From the NCBI GenBank assembly GCA_028869175.1, contig JAGWTB010000005.1, positions 1 to 58,614 of the forward strand: DNA of 58,614 bases. The letters are read 5' to 3'. This stretch comes from Sphingomonadales bacterium (GTDB taxonomy: Bacteria; Pseudomonadota; Alphaproteobacteria; Sphingomonadales; Sphingomonadaceae). Made by a program: the position numbers and the translations under genes. Of the stretch, positions 9,593-16,119 are shown one piece after another. The notes under the pieces are model-generated. The model saw only the letters and a program-made list of their open reading frames with translations. It was not told the origin of the DNA and made no database searches. The number at the start of each line of letters is the position of its first letter. The stretch's first letter is position 1.

Positions 9593-10006
9593 ATGCGCTT
9601 GTCGAGCATGGCAGATTACGCCGTCGTTACCATGTCCGCCGCCGCGCGGCATTGCGGCGGTGCGCGGGTTTCAGCCGGGCAACTGGCCGAGGAAACCGGG
9701 CTACCGGCCCCCACGGTGCAGAAACTGGTCAGCCGCCTCACCGCCGCCGGGCTACTGCGGTCGTCGCGCGGAGCGGGTGGCGGGCTCAAGCTGGGGCGGC
9801 CGGCAGCGGCGATTTCGCTAGCCGACATCGTCGAGGCAGTGGAAGGCCCTATCGCCCTGACATCGTGCCTTGATGAAGAGCGCAACAGTTGCTCGCTCGA
9901 AGCGGGCTGCACGGTGCGGCCGCACTGGCCGGTGGTAAACGAGGTGCTGCGCAGCGCGCTGGGCGGGGTGAGCCTGATGCAGATGTCGCAAGGCCACGCC
10001 GCATGA
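9593..10006 (+). CDS. sufR: Rrf2 family SUF-system regulator (SufR/IscR-like)
   Basis: '[20 protein letters not shown]', '[33 protein letters not shown]', cysteine pattern '[13 protein letters not shown]'; overlaps sufB by ATGA. Confidence 0.85.
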
Positions 10007-11484
10007 CCGAACAATCGACCGTGAAGGACCAGGCCGCGCGCGATGCCGCCGCAAAGGTGGCGGACTATGAGCACGGCTGGTCGGCCGACATCGAGACCGA
10101 CTTTGCCCCCAAGGGGCTGCGCGAGGATACCGTCCGCTTCATCAGCGCGAAGAAGAACGAGCCCGAATGGATGCTCGAATGGCGGCTCAAGGCCTATCGC
10201 CACTGGCTGACCATGCCAATGCCCGACTGGGCCAAGCTCAACATTTCGCCGATCGATTACCAGGACGCCTATTACTACGCCGCGCCCAAGGCGAAGAAGC
10301 AGCTCGCCAGCCTCGATGAAGTCGATCCCGAGATCCTGCGGGTGTATGAGAAGCTCGGCATCCCGCTGGAGGAGCAGAAAGTGCTCGCCGGGGTGGAGGG
10401 CGCGCGGCGCGTCGCGGTTGATGCAGTGTTCGATTCGGTCTCCGTCGCCACCACCTTTCGCGAGGAACTGAAGCGCGCCGGGGTGATCTTCCTGTCGATC
10501 AGCGAGGCGATCCGCGAATATCCCGACATGGTGAAGAAGTGGCTTGGCCGGGTCGTGCCGATGCACGACAACTTCTTCGCCGCGCTCAACTGCGCGGTCT
10601 TTTCCGACGGGACCTTCGTCTATGTACCCGAAGGCGTGCGTTGCCCGATGGAGCTCTCCACCTATTTCCGCATCAACGCGGAGAACACCGGCCAGTTCGA
10701 ACGCACGCTGATCGTCGCCGACAAGGGGGCCTATGTCTCCTACCTCGAAGGCTGCACCGCGCCGATGCGCGACGAGAACCAGCTTCACGCCGCCGTGGTC
10801 GAGTTGGTTGCGCTCGATGATGCCGAGATCAAGTATTCCACCGTGCAGAACTGGTACCCCGGCAACGCCGAGGGACTGGGCGGCATCTACAACTTCGTCA
10901 CCAAGCGCGCGCTGTGCCAGGGCAAACGCAGCAAGGTCAGCTGGACCCAGGTCGAAACTGGCAGCGCGGTCACCTGGAAGTACCCGTCCTGCGTGCTCAA
11001 CGGCGAGGATTCGGTGGGCGAGTTCTACTCAGTAGCAGTGACCAACAATTACCAGCAGGCCGATACCGGCACCAAGATGATCCACAACGGCAAGGGCAGC
11101 TGCTCGACCATCGTCTCCAAGGGTATCAGCGCGGGCAAGAGCAGCAACACCTATCGCGGCCTCGTGCGCGTCGGCGCGGGCGCGGACAACGTGCGCAACT
11201 TCACCCAGTGCGACAGCCTGCTGCTGGGCGGGGACTGCGGCGCGCATACCGTGCCCTATATCGAAGTGCGCAACCCCACCGCGCAGATCGAGCACGAGGC
11301 GACCACCAGCAAGATTTCCGACGACCAGTTGTTCTACGCGATGCAGCGCGGACTGGGTCAGGAGGAAGCCGTGGCGCTGATTGTCAACGGCTTTGCCAAG
11401 GAAGTCCTGCAGCAATTGCCCATGGAATTCGCAGTCGAGGCGCAGAAGCTGCTGGGGATTTCGCTTGAGGGGAGCGTGGGATGA
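10003..11484 (+). CDS. sufB: Fe-S cluster assembly protein SufB
   Basis: '[30 protein letters not shown]', '[43 protein letters not shown]', '[29 protein letters not shown]'. Confidence 0.97.
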
Positions 11485-11984
11485 CTGCTTTTCTCGACAA
11501 GGGCTGGGCCAGGAAAGCCCCTCCCCTTCAGGGGAGGGGTTTGGGGTGGGGCTTGTCGCAAGAGCAGATCGAATGGCTGCACACGCGCGCTCGCGAGATG
11601 CGGCGCAACCCGACGGAACCCGAGAAGCGCTTGTGGCGCAACCTGTCCAATGGACAGCTTGATGGTCTGAAATTCCGGCGTCAGGAAGTGATCGGTCGCT
11701 TCATAGCCGATTTCATGTGCCCGGCTCGTTCGCTCATTGTCGAGGTCGACGGCGATACGCACGACGAGGACAAGGACAGGCTTCGGGACGAAGAGCTGGC
11801 CGAATTCGGCTTTCTGGTGGTGCGGGTGACCAATCTGGAGGTGATGGGCAATCCCGAGGGCGTGCTTACGGCGATCAGCCTGGCCGCTACCGGACGGTCT
11901 TCGCGCCACATTCCCCACCCCAACCCCTCCCCTGAAGGGGAGGGGCTTGTTAAGTCCCGCACGCCGGAAGGAACGCCCGCATGA
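11481..11984 (+). CDS. DUF559 domain (Vsr-like/PD-(D/E)XK fold) endonuclease-like protein, copy 1
   Basis: '[66 protein letters not shown]'; start and stop overlap neighbours by ATGA. Confidence 0.85.
11515..11551. repeat. Left arm of inverted REP-like repeat pair
   Basis: aagcccctccccttcaggggaggggtttggggtgggg; near-perfect inverted copy at 11913-11948. Confidence 0.9.
11913..11948. repeat. Right arm of inverted REP-like repeat pair
   Basis: ccccaccccaacccctcccctgaaggggaggggctt; reverse complement differs from the left arm by a single T indel. Confidence 0.9.
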
Positions 11985-12427
11985 CCACTCGCAAGACCCT
12001 CGGCATCCGGGCCGATGCTGCCGACACGCCGCCCGATCCGCGCGCCTGGGCCGCCACCGGCGAGCGGCTGGAGCGGCTGCGCGACCGCGCCCGGGATCTG
12101 CGCCGCCACCCCACCGATGCGCAGGTCATGCTGTGGGAACAGCTTTCCGGTGCACGGCTGGGCGGGGTGAAGTTCACCCGGCAGGCGGTGGTCGGCAGCA
12201 CCATCGTCGATTTCGCCTGCCCGTCGCGCTGGATCGTCGTCGAGATCACCGGCGCGGAAGACAGCGCCGAACTTGCCGAACTGCAGGACGGCAAGCTGAC
12301 CGCCGCCGGCATTCGCGTGCTGCGCTTTGCCGAGTGCGAAGTGCTGGACCGGCTCGACGCGGTGATGGCCGAAATCAACGCCGCCGTGAGCGCCCCGTTC
12401 GACCGCAAGACCGCGCGACGGGGGTAA
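11981..12427 (+). CDS. DUF559 domain protein, copy 2 (divergent, altered catalytic motif)
   Basis: 'LRRHPTDAQVMLWEQLSGARLGGVKFTRQAVVGSTIVDFACPSRWIVVEITGAEDSAEL' aligns with copy 1, but EVDGDTH is replaced by EITGAED. Confidence 0.8.
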   Translation: MTTRKTLGIRADAADTPPDPRAWAATGERLERLRDRARDLRRHPTDAQVMLWEQLSGARLGGVKFTRQAVVGSTIVDFACPSRWIVVEITGAEDSAELAELQDGKLTAAGIRVLRFAECEVLDRLDAVMAEINAAVSAPFDRKTARRG

Positions 12428-12431
12428 TAGG

Positions 12432-13181
12432 ATGACCATGCTCCAGATTCATAACCTCCATGCCACGGTCGCCGACAAGCCGATCCTCAAGGGCCTGAGC
12501 CTCACCATCAACGCGGGCGAGGTCCATGCGATCATGGGGCCGAACGGCGCGGGCAAGTCGACGCTGGGCTATACGCTGGGCGGGCGGCCCGGCTATGACG
12601 TGACCGGCGGCGAGGTGCTGTTCTGCGGGCAGGATCTGCTCGCGCTGGCACCGCACGAGCGGGCCGCTGCCGGCCTGTTCCTCGGCTTCCAGTACCCGGT
12701 CGAGATTCCCGGTGTATCCTTCGTCCAGTTCCTGCGCGAGGCGGCCAATGCCCAGCGCCGGCACCGGGGCGAGGAGCCGCTTTCGGGCGGCGAATTCCTC
12801 AAGCTGGCGCGCGAGAAGGCGGCGCTGCTGCGCATGGACATGGACATGCTCAAGCGCCCGGTGAACGTCGGTTTCTCCGGCGGCGAGAAGAAGCGTGCCG
12901 AGATGGTGCAAATGGGCATTCTCGCGCCCAGGCTGGCGATCCTCGACGAGACCGATTCCGGGCTCGACATCGATGCCCTGCGCATCTGCGGCGAGGGGAT
13001 CGAGGCGATCATGCGCAAGCCGGACAAGGCCGTGCTGCTGATCACCCATTACCAGCGCCTGCTCGACTATGTGAAGCCCGACTTCGTCCATGTCCTCGCC
13101 GGTGGCCGCATCGTCCGCACTGGCGGGCCGGAACTGGCGCTGGAACTGGAAGAGCAGGGCTATGAGGCGGTAGCGGCGTGA
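12432..13181 (+). CDS. sufC: Fe-S cluster assembly ATPase SufC
   Basis: Walker A 'GPNGAGKST', signature 'GFSGGEKKRAEMVQM', 'ILDETDSGLDIDAL'. Confidence 0.97.
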   Translation: MTMLQIHNLHATVADKPILKGLSLTINAGEVHAIMGPNGAGKSTLGYTLGGRPGYDVTGGEVLFCGQDLLALAPHERAAAGLFLGFQYPVEIPGVSFVQFLREAANAQRRHRGEEPLSGGEFLKLAREKAALLRMDMDMLKRPVNVGFSGGEKKRAEMVQMGILAPRLAILDETDSGLDIDALRICGEGIEAIMRKPDKAVLLITHYQRLLDYVKPDFVHVLAGGRIVRTGGPELALELEEQGYEAVAA

Positions 13182-15647: not shown

Positions 15648-15648
15648 C

Positions 15649-15754
15649 CCTTTTCTCCCGCATGCGGGAAGGGTTGGGGGTGGGCAAATGGCCGAACCGT
15701 CCCCAGATGAGCATGGCCCACCCCCGTCCCCTCCCGCACCCGGGAGGGGGGAAG
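15649..15754. repeat. MITE-like inverted-repeat element between sufT and sufA
   Basis: Left cccttttctcccgcatgcgggaagggttgggggtgggc and right gcccacccccgtcccctcccgcacccgggaggggggaagg are imperfect inverted copies, each containing its own palindrome. Confidence 0.7.
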
Positions 15755-15762
15755 GATCTGGA

Positions 15763-16119
15763 ATGACCGAAACCCGCACTCGCCAGCGCCCCGCCGCCGT
15801 CATCCTGACACCCAGTGCCGAGGCGCGCATCGCGCATCTGATGGGCGCGGCCCCTGCCGGCGCGATCGGGGTGAAGCTTTCCACCCCGCGCCGCGGCTGT
15901 TCGGGGCTGGCCTATTCGGTCGACTATGTCACCGAGGCGAATGGGCTGGATGAGAGGATCGACACCCCCGGCGGAGCCTTCTTCATCGATGCGGCATCGG
16001 TGCTCTACCTGATTGGCAGCACGATGGACTGGGTGGAAGACGATTTCCAGGCGGGCTTCGTGTTCCAGAACCCCAACGCGAAGGGCTCCTGCGGCTGCGG
16101 CGAGAGCTTTACCGTCTGA
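15763..16119 (+). CDS. sufA: HesB/IscA-type Fe-S assembly protein SufA
   Basis: 'VKLSTPRRGCSGLAYSVDYV' and 'NPNAKGSCGCGESFTV'; likely start ATGACCGAAACC at 15763 downstream of the repeat. Confidence 0.88.
   Translation: MTETRTRQRPAAVILTPSAEARIAHLMGAAPAGAIGVKLSTPRRGCSGLAYSVDYVTEANGLDERIDTPGGAFFIDAASVLYLIGSTMDWVEDDFQAGFVFQNPNAKGSCGCGESFTV

Follow-up and report, generated by a model that had tools for sequence, protein, structure and literature searches.

What two nuclease-like genes are doing inside an operon for Fe-S cluster assembly is the question raised by the suf locus of the window, the window being the whole 58,614 nucleotide stretch of Sphingomonadales DNA that was analysed. Between sufB (10003..11484, forward strand; TIGR01980/PRK11814 over cut-off) and sufC (12432..13181, forward strand; TIGR01978) lie DUF559-1, referred to here as copy 1 (11481..11984, forward strand, 167 aa), and DUF559-2, referred to as copy 2 (11981..12427, forward strand, 148 aa). 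The family assignment made in the initial annotation is confirmed by a protein search, in which both match PF04480 above its curated cut-off of 20.6 (copy 1, E 2.6e-32, 111 bits; copy 2, E 2e-22, 80 bits). The tight packing of the four genes, also described there, is present as well. The sufB TGA at 11482–11484 overlaps the copy 1 ATG at 11481, the two DUF559 genes are joined by ATGA at 11981–11984, and the sufC ATG at 12432 is 4 nt past the stop of copy 2. The motifs that had been quoted are exact, with ADF...EVDGDTH in copy 1 and VDF...EITGAED in copy 2.

The initial annotation did not notice that the same perfect palindrome is located just inside both ends of copy 1, in mirror orientation. 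The left palindrome, CCCCTCCCCTTCAGGGGAGGGG (11518–11539), is followed by an inner arm, TTTGGGGTGGGGC (11540–11552), this whole unit (11518..11552, forward strand) being within the N-terminal part of the copy 1 ORF. The right unit (11913..11945, reverse strand) is within the C-terminal part and consists of an inner arm, CCCCACCCCAA (11913–11923), and the palindrome CCCCTCCCCTGAAGGGGAGGGG (11924–11945). These are the 2 copies found in the window, against 0.01 expected from shuffling. The left palindrome is translated in frame, therefore copy 1 could start either at the ATG that overlaps the sufB stop or further on, at a TTG at about 11553; the frame is open across the left palindrome in 10 out of 10 suf-linked loci caught by a start-codon survey. 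The G-rich inner arm just upstream of the coding region may also aid translation. Further along the same operon, between sufT-like and sufA-like genes, there is a gene-less pair of palindromes of a second subfamily, the CTCCCGC type (15648..15751), which is REPIN-like. The listed ORF start at 15688 is inside this pair, and the sufA-like gene therefore probably begins at an ATG near 15763. Rfam searches for structured RNAs gave only sub-threshold microRNA matches, all of them on this pair, and PADLOC and PHROGs searches gave no convincing match that would indicate a defence-system or phage origin.

Few bacterial repeats are as common as REP sequences and REPINs, and the enzyme with a known link to them is the RAYT, a Y1 transposase. 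The palindrome of copy 1 is likewise a genome-wide repeat. The genome from which the window comes (2.77 Mb, 67% complete) contains 89 copies of CCCCTCCCCTTCAGGGGAGGGG with three or fewer mismatches, compared with 1 for the reversed control pattern. Many of these copies are mirror pairs 60–116 bp apart, with arms TTGGGGTGGGG pointing inwards and a short variable middle, and a single strand of such a pair forms a long continuous hairpin when folded (z about -8.6 and -8.8). This paired layout is the REPIN architecture. Among the listed close pairs (<1 kb) in this genome all are short except the pair around DUF559-1, which is 406 bp. The coordinate lists of two other genomes, G343 and G353, are similar, with nearly all pairs less than 120 bp apart and the pair of about 400 bp being a DUF559 gene. 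There are eight DUF559 genes in the genome of the window; copy 2 is the only one of these without palindromes, and the genes other than the suf-linked pair are accompanied by palindrome variants of their own, most of these genes having them on both flanks.

Enclosure by palindromes is a general characteristic of DUF559 genes. Using inverted repeats with an alignment score of 15 or more as the definition of enclosure, inverted flanking repeats are found at 50 of 59 DUF559 loci (85%) in other genera of the same family, compared with 0.42% of 7621 offset control positions in the same DNA, so that enclosure is about 200 times commoner at the DUF559 genes. The enclosing arms are palindromes that carry the G-rich inner arm, and they are near-constant around genes that are merely about 55% identical. 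Beyond this family, 31 of 48 loci from the same class and from other classes of the phylum are enclosed; for the other classes alone the figure is 7 out of 9.

The number of palindromes in a genome also follows the presence of the genes. Copies of CTCCCCN{2,6}GGGGAG and of CTCCCGCN{2,4}GCGGGAG were counted in 58 genera, intact genes being defined in this survey as DUF559 genes other than those of the copy 2 type. Loci were sorted by clade rather than by suf linkage, L056 and L058 being of the copy 1 type and also suf-linked, and L054 being a copy 2. Palindrome count and number of intact DUF559 genes are correlated across the 58 genera (rho 0.78, p 6e-13). At least five palindromes are present in 34 of the 43 genera with an intact gene versus none of the 15 that have no DUF559 gene or only copy 2, where the count is at most 4. 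In the remaining nine genera that have an intact gene, copies of the two palindrome types amount to fewer than five. Each of the 37 genomes selected because it has a copy-1-type gene contains the cognate palindrome of that gene, between 2 and 158 times, and the reversed control is found 0 times. On the SufB tree there are four independent contrasts on well supported branches, none of which is in the wrong direction and which are too few for significance.

Copy 1 is a catalytically intact, Vsr-type nuclease gene. Residues E48, D77, E88, D90, H94 and D99 (copy 1 numbering) are all present, and the set E48, W52, Q68, D77, E88, D90, H94, D99 and R102 is 97–99% conserved in 113 DUF559 genes outside the copy 2 type. 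The closest solved structures are 3hrl, an endonuclease-like protein from Neisseria, and 3r3p, the homing endonuclease I-Bth0305I, with which there is also a weak profile similarity (E 0.0046). The Vsr structures 1vsr (E 0.01) and 1cw0 (E 0.027) are matched as well, being less close than these two. Since the closest solved relatives are an endonuclease-like protein and a homing endonuclease, it is plausible that copy 1 encodes a site-directed cutter.

The location of copy 1 is stable. Its closest relatives were surveyed in 80 named records from another collection, where 68 of the 80 loci with copy-1-type genes belong to the suf operon and the mirror palindromes are kept in 73 of the 79 records scored. 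This suf location rules out a recent random insertion of copy 1 and, together with the kept palindromes, suggests that copy 1 is a long-established resident whose place is stable and whose repeat family is mobile. It is the palindrome population that is dispersed, not the copy 1 gene. Of the earlier description of copy 1 as more intact and possibly mobile, the first part is borne out by the complete catalytic residues and the second only in its mobile-element-like ends, the gene itself not being a recent stray insertion. There are three gene-plus-palindrome units in G041 that are 86–98% identical over about 510–680 bp in otherwise unrelated surroundings, which suggests that gene and palindromes can spread together as one unit. 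No target-site duplication was seen at the G041 units or at the loci of the window's genus, and there is no close pair of empty and filled sites among them. Within that genus copy 1 is also present in G089, two genomes have a unit similar to copy 1 on the opposite side of copy 2, and ten or so congeners carry copy 2 only. One congener has no DUF559 gene between sufB and sufC (L131), and in another a deletion scar of copy 1 is seen (L133; G064), where the gene is gone but its left flank persists, as does the right palindrome.

Copy 2 (11981..12427) is a non-catalytic, suf-linked DUF559 gene without palindromes. The loss of an Asp and a His near its active site, noted in the initial annotation, corresponds to D90 to T and H94 to D, with D77 and E88 kept; E48 to Q and D99 to A are further changes in the copy 2 of the window. 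Erosion of this kind is general in 49 copy-2-type genes, with D77 present in 96%, E88 in 20% and D90 in 55%, and both H94 and D99 gone. The copy-2-type genes group together in a single clade (SH-aLRT 99), which neighbours the copy 1 lineages in the tree and in which all 43 members are suf-linked between sufB and sufC. Among close congeners dN/dS is about 0.05–0.3, which suggests that the copy 2 protein is retained for some purpose; when the copy 2 of the window is one of the two genes compared, the values are 0.56–0.80, indicating weaker constraint or saturation. The single suf-only clade, the lost residues and the purifying selection in close congeners largely uphold the suggestion of an old domesticated non-catalytic copy, copy-2-type genes being for the most part under purifying selection.

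The predicted fold of copy 2 is still Vsr-like (pLDDT 78.5). Its model matches 3hrl, 3r3p and ribosome-bound proteins of the mitochondria of Toxoplasma and Tetrahymena, the latter giving a hint only that a Vsr-like fold can serve in RNA-protein assemblies. None of 25 copy-2-only sufB-sufC intervals contains the palindromes. Genera with an intact DUF559 gene have a median of 4.5 palindromes when copy 2 is present versus 40 when it is not, an association that is confounded by phylogeny, since most genera with copy 2 belong to one clade. Many copy 2 proteins (for example L141, L200 and L214) have KKGRGWxIS near the start, a motif similar to what the inner arm on the left side of copy 1 encodes, and possibly a fossil of the lost palindrome.

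The association of DUF559 genes with the palindromes is demonstrated by the enclosure of the genes, the cognate repeats, the covariation with intact genes and the dispersal of whole units, the palindromes numbering tens to hundreds in these genomes and often forming inverted pairs with no gene between them. Judged from these comparisons, copy 1 is probably the resident nuclease of a REPIN-like system with a Vsr-type enzyme and copy 2 its domesticated, non-catalytic relative. The DUF559 nuclease would be the mobiliser of the palindromes. It would recognise the palindrome, as a hairpin or as a duplex, and cut at or beside it, and this cutting would lead to palindrome pairs being copied or moved at a low rate. 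The copy 1 gene itself would stay at sufB-sufC and be inherited mostly vertically. Copy 2, as a relative of copy 1, would have shed both its palindromes and its catalytic residues at an early stage of the family's history. It may now be an operon-borne non-catalytic protein that is perhaps nucleic-acid-binding.

The REPIN-RAYT system has high-copy short palindromes, mirror-paired as hairpin units of about 60–120 bp, and a small gene enclosed by inverted copies (PMC8049555, PMC3116915), the RAYT having a stable place alongside a mobile repeat family (PMC8049555). High-copy palindromes in mirror pairs, hairpin-forming units and a cognate gene, mostly at one place, between inverted copies of the same palindrome are found here too, as is a greater number of palindromes where the gene is present, for which the phylogenetic control is underpowered here. 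The enzyme differs, however, being a PD-(D/E)XK nuclease with the Vsr fold (DUF559) rather than a Y1 HUH transposase. Read against the description of GTAG or CGTC tags beside REPs (PMC3733652), the palindromes here have neither tag, and several intact genes, each with its own palindrome variants, often share one genome. With both the Y1 HUH enzyme and the tags missing, the system should not be filed under REPIN-RAYT. Inverted ends, gene-free miniature derivatives and the discrete near-identical copies in G041 are likenesses to insertion sequences and MITEs, from which the system differs in lacking a known transposase; nor was a target-site duplication seen at the loci compared.

That the palindromes are instead ordinary REPs, moved by a RAYT or another transposase, with the DUF559 genes as passengers or at permissive sites where REPs accumulate, is unlikely. 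Operon junctions do gather both REPs and small accessory genes, sufB-sufC holds other small genes and repeats, and there are somewhat more palindromes in Y1-positive genomes. Y1_Tnp is, however, absent from 15 of 23 palindrome-rich genomes, all 23 of which have an intact DUF559 gene, and of the 15 Y1 genes not one has these palindromes on its flanks. The link between DUF559 and palindromes persists when Y1-negative genomes are taken alone (p 0.0013). A RAYT as the mobiliser is not supported, Y1 being so often missing and unflanked, and the correlation being left unexplained by it. The mirror-image enclosure close to the gene, at its frequency over controls, and the lengths of the pairs in G343 and G353 also argue against ordinary REPs. 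No Y1_Tnp above cut-off was found in the window's own genome, at its 67% completeness. As a separate observation, the Y1 transposase gene L340 of G057 is flanked by a 31 bp perfect inverted repeat, an arrangement already described in TIR-flanked RAYT-like genes. A slightly less probable reading takes DUF559-1 as a mismatch repair nuclease of the very-short-patch type or a methylation-linked nuclease, with the palindromes serving only expression, through transcript stability or ribosome binding by the G-rich inner arm. The Vsr fold, with 1vsr and 1cw0 among the structure matches, and the frequent location of the inner arm GGGGTGGGG upstream of the start codon are consistent with this. So is Caulobacter VsrA, a DUF559 protein studied in vivo, which triggers SOS in cells without a cytosine methyltransferase and has been read as a mismatch-repair nuclease that is harmful without a methyltransferase, with no mention of palindromes (PMC12907096). 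VsrA and Neisseria NGO0050 (3hrl) have the domain, the catalytic residues of copy 1 and the predicted fold in common with the genes here; the differences are that VsrA is described as a repair nuclease without palindromes and that copy 2 has no active site. A repair function leaves unexplained the two-sided mirror palindromes, the gene-free pairs across the genome, the absence of palindromes without an intact DUF559 gene and their near-constancy around such divergent genes.

The fold and profile matches to I-Bth0305I and the near-identical units in G041 would also fit a selfish gene like a homing endonuclease, with the nuclease cutting empty sites, repair spreading the gene and the palindromes being decorative. 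This is improbable, as such spread is allelic, at one site, and does not cover dispersal to unrelated places or gene-free pairs, and the nuclease would recognise the empty site rather than the palindrome. Besides the related fold there are differences from I-Bth0305I in that there is no intron or intein here, the gene being between operon genes and within palindromes. Least probable of all, and very doubtful, is that one or both DUF559 proteins serve Fe-S cluster assembly, a role that had been raised speculatively in the initial annotation. The conserved place of copy 2, the frequency with which its start codon overlaps the sufB stop and the purifying selection that it shows among close congeners could be seen as indications of it. 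Against this, of the 58 genera of the family 25 have copy 2 alone at sufB-sufC, 4 have copy 1 alone, 1 has both and 28 have neither; copy 1 is patchy among congeners, missing at L131 along with any other DUF559 gene and lost with a scar at L133. Unrelated small genes are also found at this junction in congeners (L143, L127, L129, L130, L132, L136, L137 and L140, one of them acetyltransferase-like), which suggests that the junction collects genes. A role in Fe-S assembly therefore has no support here.

Taken more widely, the reading of copy 1 as the nuclease of a REPIN-like system would make DUF559 the family of enzymes behind a second class of REPIN systems, one independent of HUH enzymes, across the Alphaproteobacteria and other classes of the phylum. 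Each nuclease lineage would maintain a palindrome subfamily of its own. Copy 2, no longer catalytic, would have been domesticated from this class, possibly as a restrainer of it. The balance is slightly in favour of this extension. If true, many genes that now carry no annotation beyond 'DUF559' or 'endonuclease domain-containing protein' would gain a function, the GC-rich palindromes of many Proteobacteria would gain a likely cause, and the persistence of such sequence populations would become testable in a second, independent system. Copy 2 would be a case of the domestication of such an enzyme within an important operon. Searches of the open PMC literature, with subscription papers and preprints outside their scope, found no report linking DUF559 with palindromes or REP sequences, and no match for REPIN, RAYT and Alphaproteobacteria together. 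Within the open-access literature, DUF559 as the enzyme of a REPIN-like system therefore appears to be new.

The sufB-sufC junction has further variations among the relatives. In G016 a copy-1-type and a copy-2-type gene are fused in one 316-aa ORF between sufB and sufC (L036; G016:C1:571728-572612). The palindromes of this fused ORF have decayed, and there are almost none elsewhere in that genome. At L127 and L138 the junction carries repeats resembling the described CGTC-type REPs (CGTCATCCCGG...).
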